A stretch of DNA of 39,956 bases, from assembly GCA_016201205.1 (NCBI GenBank), contig JACQDF010000246.1:1-39956 (forward strand). The letters are read 5' to 3'. The translations under genes were made by a program, and so were the position numbers. The notes beneath the pieces were generated by a model. It made no database searches and was not told the DNA's origin. It worked only from the letters and a program-made list of their open reading frames with translations. This DNA is from Acidobacteriota bacterium. GTDB taxonomy: Bacteria > Acidobacteriota > Terriglobia > Bryobacterales > Bryobacteraceae. Below, one piece after another: positions 2,809 through 6,725 of the stretch; within the stretch, counting starts at the first letter, position 1; every line of letters begins with the position of its first letter.

Positions 2809-2858
2809 GGAGTGTTCAGTTGCGCGGGCCGGCGCTGTACGCTCTCAAAGGGGGGTTC

Positions 2859-3383
2859 ATGAATCGAGTCACATTCCTGCTGGCAGCCACTGGGACCGTT
2901 GCCAGCCTCTACGCGCAAGGCGGCAAGAGCCACCTGAAGGTCGGGGACATGGCGCCGGATTTCTCGCTCCCGTCCACGTCCGGCAAGCCGGTGAAACTCT
3001 CGGACTTCCGGGGCCAGAAGAACGTCGTGCTGGCGTTCTTTCCGGCCGCGTTCACCGGTGGTTGAACGAAGGAGATGAAAGGATACCAGGCTGGTATCTC
3101 CAATTTTGAGGGCAACGACACCCAGGTCTTCGGCATCAGCACGGACAACACGCCAAGCCTGAAGGTGTTCGCCGAGCAGACCGGAGCCACCTTCCCGCTG
3201 CTCAGCGATTTCATGCGCAAGGTGACCAAGGAGTACGGGGTGCTGAACGAAGAACGGGGCATTGCCAACCGGTCGACGTTCGTCATCGACACGCAGGGTA
3301 AGATCACCTACGTCGAAGAAGGCAACTCCGCAGTCGATCCGAACGGCGCCACTCAGGCTTGTAGCCGCCTGAAGAAGAAGTAA
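2859..3383 (+). CDS. Exported peroxiredoxin selenoprotein (Sec at peroxidatic position, TGA 3063-3065)
   Basis: Read through the in-frame TGA, this is one 174-residue AhpC/TSA-family thiol peroxidase. It has a signal peptide ([19 protein letters not shown]), then [74 protein letters not shown] and [17 protein letters not shown]. The TGA (residue 69) falls exactly where family members carry the peroxidatic Cys of the 'FTGGCTKEM' motif. Similarity continues in the same frame on both sides, and no other stop interrupts it. Cys168 near the C-terminus (ACSRL) is a candidate resolving residue. A hairpin at 3082-3098 fits a bacterial SECIS. The enzyme would reduce peroxides in the periplasm. Alternatives are a pseudogene or a base-call error (TGC to TGA); the intact flanking frame argues against decay. 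A purine-rich AAAGGGGGG precedes the ATG. Confidence 0.82.
3082..3098 (+). promoter_or_regulatory. Putative bacterial SECIS hairpin after the UGA codon
   Basis: GATACC (3082-3087) and GGTATC (3093-3098) form a perfect 6-bp stem around the five-base loop AGGCU, extendable by a G-U pair at 3081/3099. The loop begins 22 nt after the UGA. It contains the exposed G expected for SelB binding and resembles the AGGUCU loop of the E. coli fdhF SECIS (from memory). It lies inside the coding sequence, as bacterial SECIS elements do. The structure is judged by eye only. Confidence 0.6.
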
Positions 3384-3443: not shown

Positions 3444-6400
3444 ATGGAAGCCTCTTCCAAGCTCCGCTCCGCCGATTGGCGGCTGGCGGCCTTTGTGGCC
3501 GCCGTGATCGCCGCCAGCACGGCGTATGTGTGGAACAACTACAATGCGGCTTTTCCCCAGGCGTCGCTGTCGCTGCCTTTGTCCAGCGGCCAGATCACGG
3601 CGAAGGCGGAAGCATACCTCAGGAGCCGCGGCTTCAGCACAGCGGGCTTCCGCAATCTGACGCTCTTTGATCCGGACGAAGATGCGCGGCTCTATCTGGA
3701 GCGCGAGCTGGGGCTCGAGCGGGCCAACCAGCTCATCGAGTCACAGGCGCCGGTGTGGCGATGGCGCGCCCGCTGGTTCCGCCCGCCCGAAAAAGAAGAG
3801 CTGCTCGTCTACCTGCGTCCCGGCGGGGGCCTGGCAGGATTCGAGCACCGCATCAAAGAAAGCGACGCCGGCGCGCGCCTCGATCAGCCGGCGGCTCGAG
3901 CGCTGGCCGAATCGTTTCTGGAAAGCCAGACCAGCCTGCCGCACAAGCTGATCTCTGCCCAAACCGAAACCCGGCCGAATCGCGACGATCACGTGTTCAC
4001 CTGGGAGCAGCAGGGATTCAAGGCGAAGGACGCGACCATTCGCCGGACAGTGGTCATGCACGGGGATCGCGTGGGGCGCTACGCCGAATTCCTCTACGTA
4101 CCCGAGCAATGGCGGCGCGACTTCGCAAAGCTGCGCTCGAGCAATGAACTCTACGCCGGCGTTGCGCAAGGCCTTTATGCCTTGCTGGCGGTTGCATCGC
4201 TGGTTCTGTTGATCCGCGGGCTCCGGCAGCGAGCGATCCGGTGGCGCCCGCTCGTGAGCATCAGCGCGGTGGTGGCGGTTGTTTACCTGCTGAACGAAAT
4301 CAACACGCTGCCCTTCGCCATCGACCGCATGGCGACCACGTCTGGCTACCGCGAGATGCAGATCATCGGCCTGGTGGAGGCGCTGGGCGCCTCGGTGGGT
4401 ATTTTCCTCTATGTGCTGCTGCCAGCGGCCGCGGGCGCCTCTCTTTATGCAAAGCGCTTTCCGCAGCAGCTTCCGCTGGCCGCCGCTTTCACCCTGCGCG
4501 GGATGGCGACGCGCTCGTTCTTTCGCGCGACTGTCGCCGGTTTCGGACTCGCCGCCGCCCACATGGCGTTTCTTACGGCGTTCTACCTGATCGGGTCGCG
4601 CTTCGGCGTGTGGAGCCCGCAGGAAATCGACTACTCCGACGTGCTGGCGACGCCGGTAGCGTGGATCTATCCGGTGTCCACTGCGTTGATGGCGTCGACG
4701 GCGGAAGAATTCTGGTTCCGGCTGCTGGCGATCCCGCTGGTGGCGCGGCTGGTGCGGTGGCGCTGGGTGGCGATGCTGGCGCCTGCCCTGCTGTGGGGCT
4801 TCCTGCACGCCAATTATCCGCAGCAGCCCGGATACATTCGCGGCGTCGAGGTCGGCATCATCGGTGTGGCTGCGGCGTGGCTGCTGGGGCGGTTCGGCAT
4901 CGTCGCCACTCTGGTGTGGCACTATGTGATCGACGCGTTCCTGATCGGTTTGTTCCTGTTCCGCGCAGAGCACTGGCTCTACCGGCTGCACGGCGGGGCA
5001 GTCGCGCTGGCGATTCTGGCGCCGCTGATTGTGGCTGTGCTGTTGTACCGCAGGCATGGCGGATTCCTGCCGGAGCCGGAACCCGCTGAGCCCGCGGCCG
5101 GGCCGCACGCCGTCGAGCGCGCCCCCGAGCCGCCGGGAGAGCCTTTCCGCCCGCTGTTGCCCGCTCGCTATCTGTACATCACCGCGGCCGCGATCGGGCT
5201 GGTCGCGCTGGTGCTGCGGCCGGTCACCTTCGGCGATTTCATCCAGGTTCGCCTGAGCCGCTCCGAGGCCGTCCGGATCGCAGCGCGCGAGATGCGAAAC
5301 CGGGACCTCGAGCCGGCCCAGTGGCGCAGCGTCGCCGACTTCACGCCCAACCTGCGGCGGACGGACATCGAGTATCTGCGCCAGCAGCTTGGAGCGCGCC
5401 CCGCCAACGAAGTCCTTCGAGATCGGATGCAGACGGCCGTCTGGCGGGTCCGCTATTTCCGGCCGCTCGAGCACGAAGAATGGCTTGTGTATGTGAACCA
5501 GCAGGGCCAGGCCTATCGCGTCGATCATGTGCTGGATGAAAAAGCGCCGGGCGCCCGGTTGCCGGCCCCGGAGGCGCGCCGCCGCGCCGAGGAGTATCTG
5601 ACGCGGCGCCACGGCGTTCCCATCCACGGCTACACGCTGGTGGACTCGCAGGAGCAAAGGGAAGAGCGCCGCACGGATCACAGCTTCGTCTGGGAAGATC
5701 CGTCGTTCCGGGCCGGCGAGGCCCGCTTCCGCGTAGCCATACAAATGGTGGGCGATGAGCCATGCGAGTACCGGCGTTTCTTCAAGATCCCCGAGCAGTG
5801 GGCTCGCGACTATCAAAAAACGAGGCTCGCCTCTTTTTTGCAGCCGGCGTTGCTGGGAGCCGCCGGAGTGCCTTTGCTGATCGCGTTCGTGCGGCGGTTA
5901 GGCTCGCCGCGGCACCGGTTTCACTGGAGGGCTTACGTGCTGATCACGCTGGCGGGGCTGGCGCTGTCGCTCGCCGGCGCCGCCAACGACTACCCGGCGT
6001 GGCTGGCGGGCTATGACACGTCGGCGCCGCTGGAGAACTTCTACGGCCAATTGGCGGCCGGGCGGGCCACCTCGGCGTTGCTGGTGGCGGCTGCCTGTTT
6101 TCTGGGCTCGATGGCTGCGGATGCGTTTTTACAGATGGCCATCGGAGAGCGTTCCCTGCCGCGGCCGGAGATAAGGCGCGCGGCGGCGCTGGCGGCGTTG
6201 TTCGCCGCAGCGGGGTCGCTGCTCGAATGGGCGCGGCAGTATGCGCCTGGCCCTCATGTGAGCTTTTCCGTGTGGGACCTTGCAGGTATGGACAGCGCCG
6301 TGCCGGCGGTGGCGGCGCTGGCAATCGCAGCATTCGCCGCATTTACGGGAACGGTCGCCGTGGTCATTCTGCTCGGCGGCGGCATCGCGCTGCTGTCGCC

Positions 6401-6725
6401 GCGCATGCGCCGGATCATGTTGGCCATTGCGGTTGTGGTTGCCGCAGCCGGCAGCACTATGGAATTCGTGCAACTGCCTTTCTTTGTCATGCTCAGCCTG
6501 GCTGCATTCGCCTGCATCGCGCTGGCGGTGGCCACCTGCGGCGCCGATGTGGTGTCGTTCTCGATCGGCCTGTTCTGGGCTCTTGCGCTCGCCCCTACCT
6601 GGAGATATTTCGAGCAACCGCTCGCTTTCCTCCGTTGGAACGGAGCAGCCGCCATTGCTCTGGCTGTTCTTGCCGGCCTGTGCTTCAGAAACCGCAGACA
6701 GGCTGCCCGTTCCTCAATTCCTTAA
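3444..6725 (+). CDS. Giant CPBP (CAAX-type) intramembrane protease with a duplicated second half
   Basis: 1093 residues from ATG 3444; a TTG at 3399 is also possible, but neither has a convincing ribosome-binding site. A first extramembrane domain (about residues 44-230) is followed by many membrane helices that include the CPBP core: E421E422FWFR426 (EExxxR), H455 in FLHANY, and H493xxxD497. These are glutamate-protease metal or catalytic residues. From about residue 602 the extramembrane domain is repeated: VWRWRARWFRPPEKEELLVY pairs with VWRVRYFRPLEHEEWLVY, and YVPEQWRRDF with KIPEQWARDY. More helices follow, but I find no second EExxxR or HxxxD set. The protease half probably cleaves a membrane or prenylated substrate; the substrate is unknown. 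The S9 gene follows after 25 bp. Confidence 0.85.
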   Translation: MEASSKLRSADWRLAAFVAAVIAASTAYVWNNYNAAFPQASLSLPLSSGQITAKAEAYLRSRGFSTAGFRNLTLFDPDEDARLYLERELGLERANQLIESQAPVWRWRARWFRPPEKEELLVYLRPGGGLAGFEHRIKESDAGARLDQPAARALAESFLESQTSLPHKLISAQTETRPNRDDHVFTWEQQGFKAKDATIRRTVVMHGDRVGRYAEFLYVPEQWRRDFAKLRSSNELYAGVAQGLYALLAVASLVLLIRGLRQRAIRWRPLVSISAVVAVVYLLNEINTLPFAIDRMATTSGYREMQIIGLVEALGASVGIFLYVLLPAAAGASLYAKRFPQQLPLAAAFTLRGMATRSFFRATVAGFGLAAAHMAFLTAFYLIGSRFGVWSPQEIDYSDVLATPVAWIYPVSTALMASTAEEFWFRLLAIPLVARLVRWRWVAMLAPALLWGFLHANYPQQPGYIRGVEVGIIGVAAAWLLGRFGIVATLVWHYVIDAFLIGLFLFRAEHWLYRLHGGAVALAILAPLIVAVLLYRRHGGFLPEPEPAEPAAGPHAVERAPEPPGEPFRPLLPARYLYITAAAIGLVALVLRPVTFGDFIQVRLSRSEAVRIAAREMRNRDLEPAQWRSVADFTPNLRRTDIEYLRQQLGARPANEVLRDRMQTAVWRVRYFRPLEHEEWLVYVNQQGQAYRVDHVLDEKAPGARLPAPEARRRAEEYLTRRHGVPIHGYTLVDSQEQREERRTDHSFVWEDPSFRAGEARFRVAIQMVGDEPCEYRRFFKIPEQWARDYQKTRLASFLQPALLGAAGVPLLIAFVRRLGSPRHRFHWRAYVLITLAGLALSLAGAANDYPAWLAGYDTSAPLENFYGQLAAGRATSALLVAAACFLGSMAADAFLQMAIGERSLPRPEIRRAAALAALFAAAGSLLEWARQYAPGPHVSFSVWDLAGMDSAVPAVAALAIAAFAAFTGTVAVVILLGGGIALLSPRMRRIMLAIAVVVAAAGSTMEFVQLPFFVMLSLAAFACIALAVATCGADVVSFSIGLFWALALAPTWRYFEQPLAFLRWNGAAAIALAVLAGLCFRNRRQAARSSIP

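Follow-up and report, generated by a model that had tools for sequence, protein, structure and literature searches.

A probable exported selenocysteine peroxiredoxin with an invariant C-terminal cysteine in Acidobacteriota

In peroxiredoxins of the Prx5 (atypical 2-Cys) type the resolving Cys is C-terminal and engages in an intrasubunit bond. The Prx5 active site is given as P(G/A)A(F/Y)(T/S)(P/G)xCP in the pertinent passages of PMC5302317, and AhpE is described in the available part of PMC8945050 as a single-Cys enzyme that is reduced by mycothiol or mycoredoxin. Peroxiredoxins with selenocysteine (Sec) are known as a class, as the original prediction for the present locus stated: the TxxU group, exemplified by PrxU of Eubacterium acidaminophilum, is listed in the consulted sections of PMC13188914. 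For the Acidobacteria, a 2006 survey counted four selenoproteins, which the consulted passages do not name (PMC1794560), and one acidobacterial test genome yielded three, according to the relevant part of PMC12013277.

Here, we analyse a gene from a window of acidobacterial DNA (the term denotes the whole stretch under study, 39,956 nucleotides) that had been predicted, from its letters, to encode an exported peroxiredoxin with Sec at the peroxidatic site. We consider it likely that the gene encodes an exported selenocysteine peroxiredoxin; taken part by part, it is almost certainly a real selenoprotein, and a peroxidase function is very probable on the strength of its conserved sequence. Sec peroxiredoxins being already known, what appears new is an AhpE-like branch, probably exported, in which a tail Cys is invariant; no description of it was found in the consulted passages of openly accessible papers. 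The original prediction mentioned neither the invariant C-terminal Cys nor the affinity to AhpE, and it did not cover the hairpin, the decay of that element where Cys stands at the site, or how widely the family occurs in the phylum. The features of the locus are collected in Table 1.

Table 1. Positions of the features discussed, numbered from the first letter of the window.
Feature	Position	Strand	Basis
Possible ribosome-binding site AAAGGGGGG, G-rich, 3 nt before the ATG at 2859	2847..2855	+	read from sequence
Probable selenoperoxiredoxin CDS, 174 aa with Sec69, stop TAA	2859..3383	+	translation, Pfam match, orthologue alignment
Putative N-terminal signal peptide, residues 1-19	2859..2915	+	by eye, hydropathy value
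Active-site stretch PAAFTGGUT, residues 62-70	3042..3068	+	translation, column counts
In-frame TGA, very probable Sec codon for the peroxidatic residue 69	3063..3065	+	orthologue alignments
SECIS-like hairpin, variable lower stem	3081..3100	+	comparison of orthologues
Hairpin upper stem, with loop AGGCT at 3088..3092	3084..3087 with 3093..3096	+	comparison of orthologues
Cys168 codon, invariant C-terminal Cys, proposed resolving residue	3360..3362	+	orthologue columns
Downstream membrane protein, 1093 aa, Rce1/CPBP-like protease domain, weak YcdB-like match	3444..6725	+	Pfam

Reading frame, export and orthologues

Translation bore out the claim that the frame is interrupted only by the TGA at 3063-3065 (codon 69), as no other disruption is found between its start and its TAA stop. 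Read through, with C written for Sec, the product matches the Pfam family AhpC-TSA (2e-39) over residues 28-151, and hence on both sides of the TGA in the same frame, as had been asserted. The TGA itself sits where peroxiredoxins have the peroxidatic Cys (PAAFTGG-U-TKEM), and the protein combines the TxxU motif with the AhpC-TSA domain, the two marks by which Sec peroxiredoxins are recognised. Across the 66 distinct family proteins assembled below, Thr/Ser66, Gly68 and Arg138 are each present in 66/66 and Thr70 in 65/66; Pro62 (of the PxxxTxxC motif) is found in 51, the window member included, and is replaced by V (8), K (3), I (2) or T (2) in the others. A composition scan of the window returned seven in-frame TGA candidates with coding-like flanks, among which only that at 3063 was convincing by eye.

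The gene had also been called unannotated-looking. The window protein falls under the cut-off of every one of the 15 NCBIfam models listed, so that standard annotation probably misses the gene, and the TGA-bearing genes of the family are, for the same reason, probably annotated as broken.

A hydrophobic N-terminal stretch recurs in many members of the family (start sites were chosen by a script rule, and those of L041, L042 and L136 are doubtful), and a twin-arginine-like motif occurs in 16/66 members, the window protein not being among them. Judged by these N-terminal features, export of the selenoperoxiredoxin is very likely, and export of most family members is plausible.

A scan of genome contigs gave 60 loci; at position 69 these align a TGA in 12 cases, TGC/TGT in 41 and another codon or none in 7 (poor matches). 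The closer orthologues, 67 loci in all, show TGA there 61 times and TGC/TGT 6 times, and only Cys codons stand in for TGA. With the addition of a seventh Cys copy (the tandem copy L135b) and the removal of duplicates (L099 and L135, for instance, are the same gene counted twice), these loci reduce to 66 distinct proteins, 59 with TGA (Sec) and 7 with Cys at position 69; an in-frame UGA where homologues carry Cys is the mark of a bacterial selenoprotein. A draw of 396 Acidobacteriota genomes (threshold E <= 1e-36) gave 56 matches in 55 genomes, and the 55 matches besides the window gene have TGA at this position without exception (55/55). The original prediction had asked whether homologues carry Cys or TGA at the site, and the answer from the closer orthologues and the phylum draw is predominantly TGA.

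Counted by genome (by eye, at E <= 1e-42), a TGA copy is present in 51 of 61 related genomes, the own genome included; three of these 51 also hold a Cys copy, whereas three of the 61 have the Cys copy alone and seven have neither. That a single family should have a TGA copy in 51/61 related genomes and in 55/396 genomes of the phylum draw may be set against the few selenoproteins surveyed in these bacteria. One family member (L042, at 53% identity) lies on a contig named Betaproteobacteria, and the family may thus extend beyond a single phylum. Comparison of the part behind the TGA with ten near relatives gave dN of 0.17-0.24 (10 pairs) and dS of 0.66-1.70 (in the nine pairs where it was unsaturated or computable), values that indicate purifying selection on this part. 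The occurrence of TAG in some orthologues (listed as '1 TGA, 1 TAG' for a genus and one neighbour) was considered as a second recoding and rejected: TAG is simply the terminator of these genes and in L144 comes 103 codons behind Sec.

SECIS-like hairpin and Sec-decoding genes

In the bSECIS model, as set out in the consulted sections of PMC13188914, a loop of 3-9 nt with a G in its first two positions tops an upper stem of 4-16 bp, at 16-37 nt from the UGA. The window hairpin agrees with the loop, stem, G and distance constraints of that model, having a 5-nt loop with G at loop position 2, a 4-bp upper stem and 22 nt from UGA to loop (same sections of PMC13188914). Folded as a single sequence it does little better than shuffles (z of -0.65 and -1.79). 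Its minimum-energy structure has other pairs, although the conserved hairpin is the centroid of the longer piece; the case for the hairpin therefore rests on comparison. Rfam gave 0 matches in the window, and 0 tRNAs were found there.

When the 59 distinct Sec sequences are compared, pairing at the four upper-stem positions holds in 96.6% of cells (89.6% in shuffled data) and 19 cells carry double changes (5.2 in shuffled data), with 0/1000 shuffles as high for either measure. All four pairs are present in 51 of the 59 genes and three in the remaining 8, while the full upper stem occurs at 86/4598 codon positions further downstream in the same genes; the loop has G at position 1 or 2 in 59/59. 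A hand-picked set of 42 of these sequences gave the same picture of the hairpin, with double changes in 2/4 pairs, a count reached by 125/500 shuffles (few pairs being involved). Codon choice points the same way in that the hairpin Ala codon is GCT in 49/49 cases (154/1305 elsewhere) and the hairpin Gly codon GGT in 41/44 (174/926 elsewhere), which indicates that less used codons are retained within the hairpin.

The seven Cys copies keep 0, 0, 1, 2, 2, 3 and 4 of the four upper pairs; in the one with all four (L114) the loop is altered and the lower stem pairs poorly, and the one with three (L105) has the look of a remnant. We read these counts as a hairpin weakened or lost in all seven. Genome G004 (locus L135, G004:C135:15800-18000) has two copies of the gene in tandem, one with Sec and one with Cys (at about 330-860 and 1040-1560), and it is in the hairpin that their DNA differs most, in 14/20 bases versus 3/15 before and 5/19 after it. 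Such paired hairpins appear to display the decay of the element once Sec has been lost. Among 55 more distant Sec genes, 42 form all four upper pairs, 3 form three and 10 (L204, L226 and L228-L235) form two or fewer at the usual register, and a hairpin universal in the family was accordingly rejected; these ten genes must have either a different SECIS form or a shifted alignment register.

The original prediction proposed searching the genome for selA, selB, selD and tRNA-Sec (selC), and regarded the absence of all Sec machinery as fatal to it. Three of the four components are present in the own genome: tRNA-Sec (77 bits, with ARAGORN concurring and anticodon tca), SelB (391 bits) and SelD (366 bits, itself TGA-containing, AAGUASK). 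A search of the assembly for SelA gave nothing above the cut-off of 268 bits, the best match reaching 37. A second match above cut-off in the tRNA-Sec search (48.6 bits) is a tRNA-Ser.

Considering that the assembly consists of 392 contigs and is 94.3% complete, the missing selA is likely an assembly gap. SelA was recovered from 11/11 other genomes of the genus, and it exceeds the cut-off in 48/51 genomes with a TGA copy, in 1/3 genomes with the Cys copy only and in 6/7 genomes without the gene. In the phylum draw, a SelA match (E <= 1e-60) accompanies 50/55 genomes with the gene versus 201/341 without it (Fisher p 1.5e-6, with the overlap taken by eye and the genomes treated as unrelated), the carriers lacking a match being G000, G200, G285, G325 and G373. 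At two of four same-genus selA loci inspected (G001 and G008), selA is preceded by a gene that we take to be PIG-L-like; nothing closer than 33% identity to the G001 protein occurs in the own genome, which fits a gap without proving it. A true loss of selA was set aside in favour of the gap.

The failure to find SelA in the assembly, and the circumstance that a stop inside a gene is often a mutation, would suit a pseudogene or a sequencing error, with the TGA a nonsense change or a misread TGC/TGT. We regard this as scarcely conceivable and take the TGA for a Sec codon, because the same TGA is conserved in orthologues from many other genomes and the frame behind it is under selection; the frame has no further disruption and carries the conserved hairpin. 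No positive evidence emerged for decoding of the TGA as an ordinary amino acid (Trp or Cys, by near-cognate read-through) or for a code altered throughout the genome, and either is very improbable: TGA is an ordinary stop that ends 17/28 long coding-like frames of the window, nothing but Cys codons replaces it in the 67 loci, and both the hairpin and the Sec genes fit the insertion of Sec. Conservation, hairpin and stop-codon use thus led us to reject pseudogene, sequencing error and code change alike. A conserved UGA, a hairpin 3' of it in the close orthologues, the Sec genes (SelA excepted) and purifying selection are what can be read off the sequences, and TGA conservation, the hairpin and the decoding genes support the placement of Sec at the peroxidatic site, as predicted.

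Sec-Cys replacement and the possible catalytic cycle

On a tree of the 66 proteins (midpoint-rooted, no outgroup), six changes account for the seven Cys rows, at least five of them forced by well-supported branches, and the Cys rows are no more clustered than shuffled labels (100/500 as low). On this midpoint-rooted tree Cys would have replaced Sec about six times, the direction being taken not from an outgroup but from Cys being rare and nested and from the damaged hairpins. If that direction is true, the Sec-to-Cys changes in this branch oppose the Cys-to-Sec trend of the 2006 survey, whose consulted passages give five Cys-to-Sec events and no Sec-to-Cys event for peroxiredoxins (PMC1794560). 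The natural Sec and Cys copies, which in G004 stand side by side, make it possible to ask directly what a peroxidase gains from selenium.

The only alignment columns with Cys or Sec in more than 5 of the 66 proteins are 69 and 168, each at 66/66, and Cys168 is kept in 55/55 further members from the phylum draw. The tail that holds it is short and varies around the Cys in the family (ACSRLKKK in the window protein). Among twelve scan loci printed in full, the family member L042 has the tail Cys and the 11 distant relatives (5 Sec and 6 Cys, hand-chosen from the scan) lack it. We reason from this pattern, with moderate confidence, that Cys168 may resolve oxidised Sec69.

The following course of events can be proposed. 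SelB and Sec-tRNA would insert Sec at the UGA at 3063, and the signal peptide would take the protein across the inner membrane, to act in the periplasm. There the Sec69 selenolate would attack H2O2 or organic peroxides and become a selenenic acid; the C-terminal tail thiol, that of Cys168, would attack this in turn to give a selenenylsulfide, and a putative periplasmic thioredoxin-like protein would reduce the latter. No reductant gene was found among the neighbours of the peroxiredoxin loci (65 loci, mostly with short flanks). For the broader proposition, that of a distinct branch scattered through the Acidobacteriota whose exported Sec protein runs a periplasmic Sec69-Cys168 cycle, with Sec ancestral and repeatedly replaced by Cys, we see even chances; were it true, selenium supply may set which of the two forms persists.

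The Rce1-like Pfam match of the downstream membrane protein (9e-10) was obtained on a fragment of it. A membrane-protease-like neighbour, the single recurrent one that was followed in the search for a conserved operon partner, occurs at 12/65 loci (directly downstream at 11 and behind the tandem copy at 1, most loci having short flanks), and we treat the protein as genomic context for the peroxiredoxin, a putative partner at most. Upstream in the window are an ECF sigma factor, a zf-HC2 protein and a zinc-ribbon frame; the first two follow one another at 1276-2243, near the peroxiredoxin, and could possibly be a redox- or zinc-sensing pair.

Besides the window gene, at least three redoxin frames of the own genome contain a TGA. 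Two of them (L019 on C319 and L024 on C362) bear UPYC/UPFC and extend into a long C-terminal region; a hairpin is predicted downstream of the TGA in each, at -12.9 and -16.1 kcal/mol, respectively. The third (L021 on C358) is a PrxQ-like TPGU frame (TPGUTVEACEF) that forms one open frame with the region upstream, presumably glycosyltransferase-like; it is either a fusion or a chance open frame. Farther afield, an AhpE-like TGA frame from Anaerolineales (L044, CALFWB010000046.1, TPIU) runs into a glutaredoxin-like domain (CTPWCPAC), with no tail Cys before that domain, and its layout suggests a built-in reductant. An exported-looking, AhpE-like Sec frame from Deltaproteobacteria (L060, JAFDCC010000100.1) likewise has no tail Cys and is possibly a one-Sec counterpart.

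The six best relatives among solved structures are M. tuberculosis Rv2238c/MT2298 chains (6e-31 to 1.6e-29), the best match covering residues 22-153. We take Rv2238c/MT2298 to be AhpE. Its closeness raises the possibility that the window protein too works with one redox residue, such that Cys168 has no resolving role and the direct reductant of the selenenic acid is a small thiol or a glutaredoxin-like protein. The glutaredoxin-like domain in frame with the distant Anaerolineales TGA protein, which lacks a tail Cys before it, is in keeping with this, as is the reduction of single-Cys AhpE by mycothiol or mycoredoxin given in the available part of PMC8945050. The invariance of Cys168 in both sets amid a varying tail, and its absence from the 11 distant relatives, speak against such a one-Sec enzyme, which we hold to be possible but unlikely. 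A further reading would be a selenoprotein of peroxiredoxin fold whose main role is that of a sensor, redox relay or chaperone in the periplasm. Its probable extracytoplasmic site, the membrane-protease-like neighbour at some loci, the ECF sigma factor and zf-HC2 protein upstream in the window and the replacement of the motif Pro in 15/66 members could all be accommodated by it; the family-wide retention of Thr/Ser66, Gly68 and Arg138, and the presence of the Pro in the window member, make it improbable, and a peroxidase remains the preferred reading.

Comparison with described peroxiredoxins

The window protein shares with AhpE its closest full-length similarity among solved structures. It differs in that AhpE has one Cys (PMC8945050, in the available part), whereas here Sec, the tail Cys168 and a putative signal peptide are found; with Cys168 invariant as a second residue, the protein departs from the single-Cys definition of AhpE.

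With Prx5 the protein may have in common a C-terminal resolving Cys, for which the conserved C168 is the candidate. Its active site (PAAFTGGUT) is one step from the Prx5 motif in the pertinent passages of PMC5302317, departing from it by Thr for the last Pro and by Sec for Cys. The best full-length similarity, on the other hand, is to Rv2238c, and no molecule named Prx5 occurs among the best 60 of 149 solved-structure matches.

From PrxQ/BCP the protein is set apart by its score against PRK09437 (89.4 bits, cut-off 140). A Sec-containing PrxQ/BCP (TPGU) is what the paralogue L021 of the own genome looks like, and that paralogue is separate, being 34% identical and having other active-site letters.

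With PrxU the protein has in common the PF00578 domain and Sec at the peroxidatic site within a TxxU motif (PMC13188914, consulted sections). It scores 70.3 bits against NF040737, whose cut-off is 270, and it contrasts with PrxU in being probably exported and, perhaps, in its invariant C-terminal Cys.
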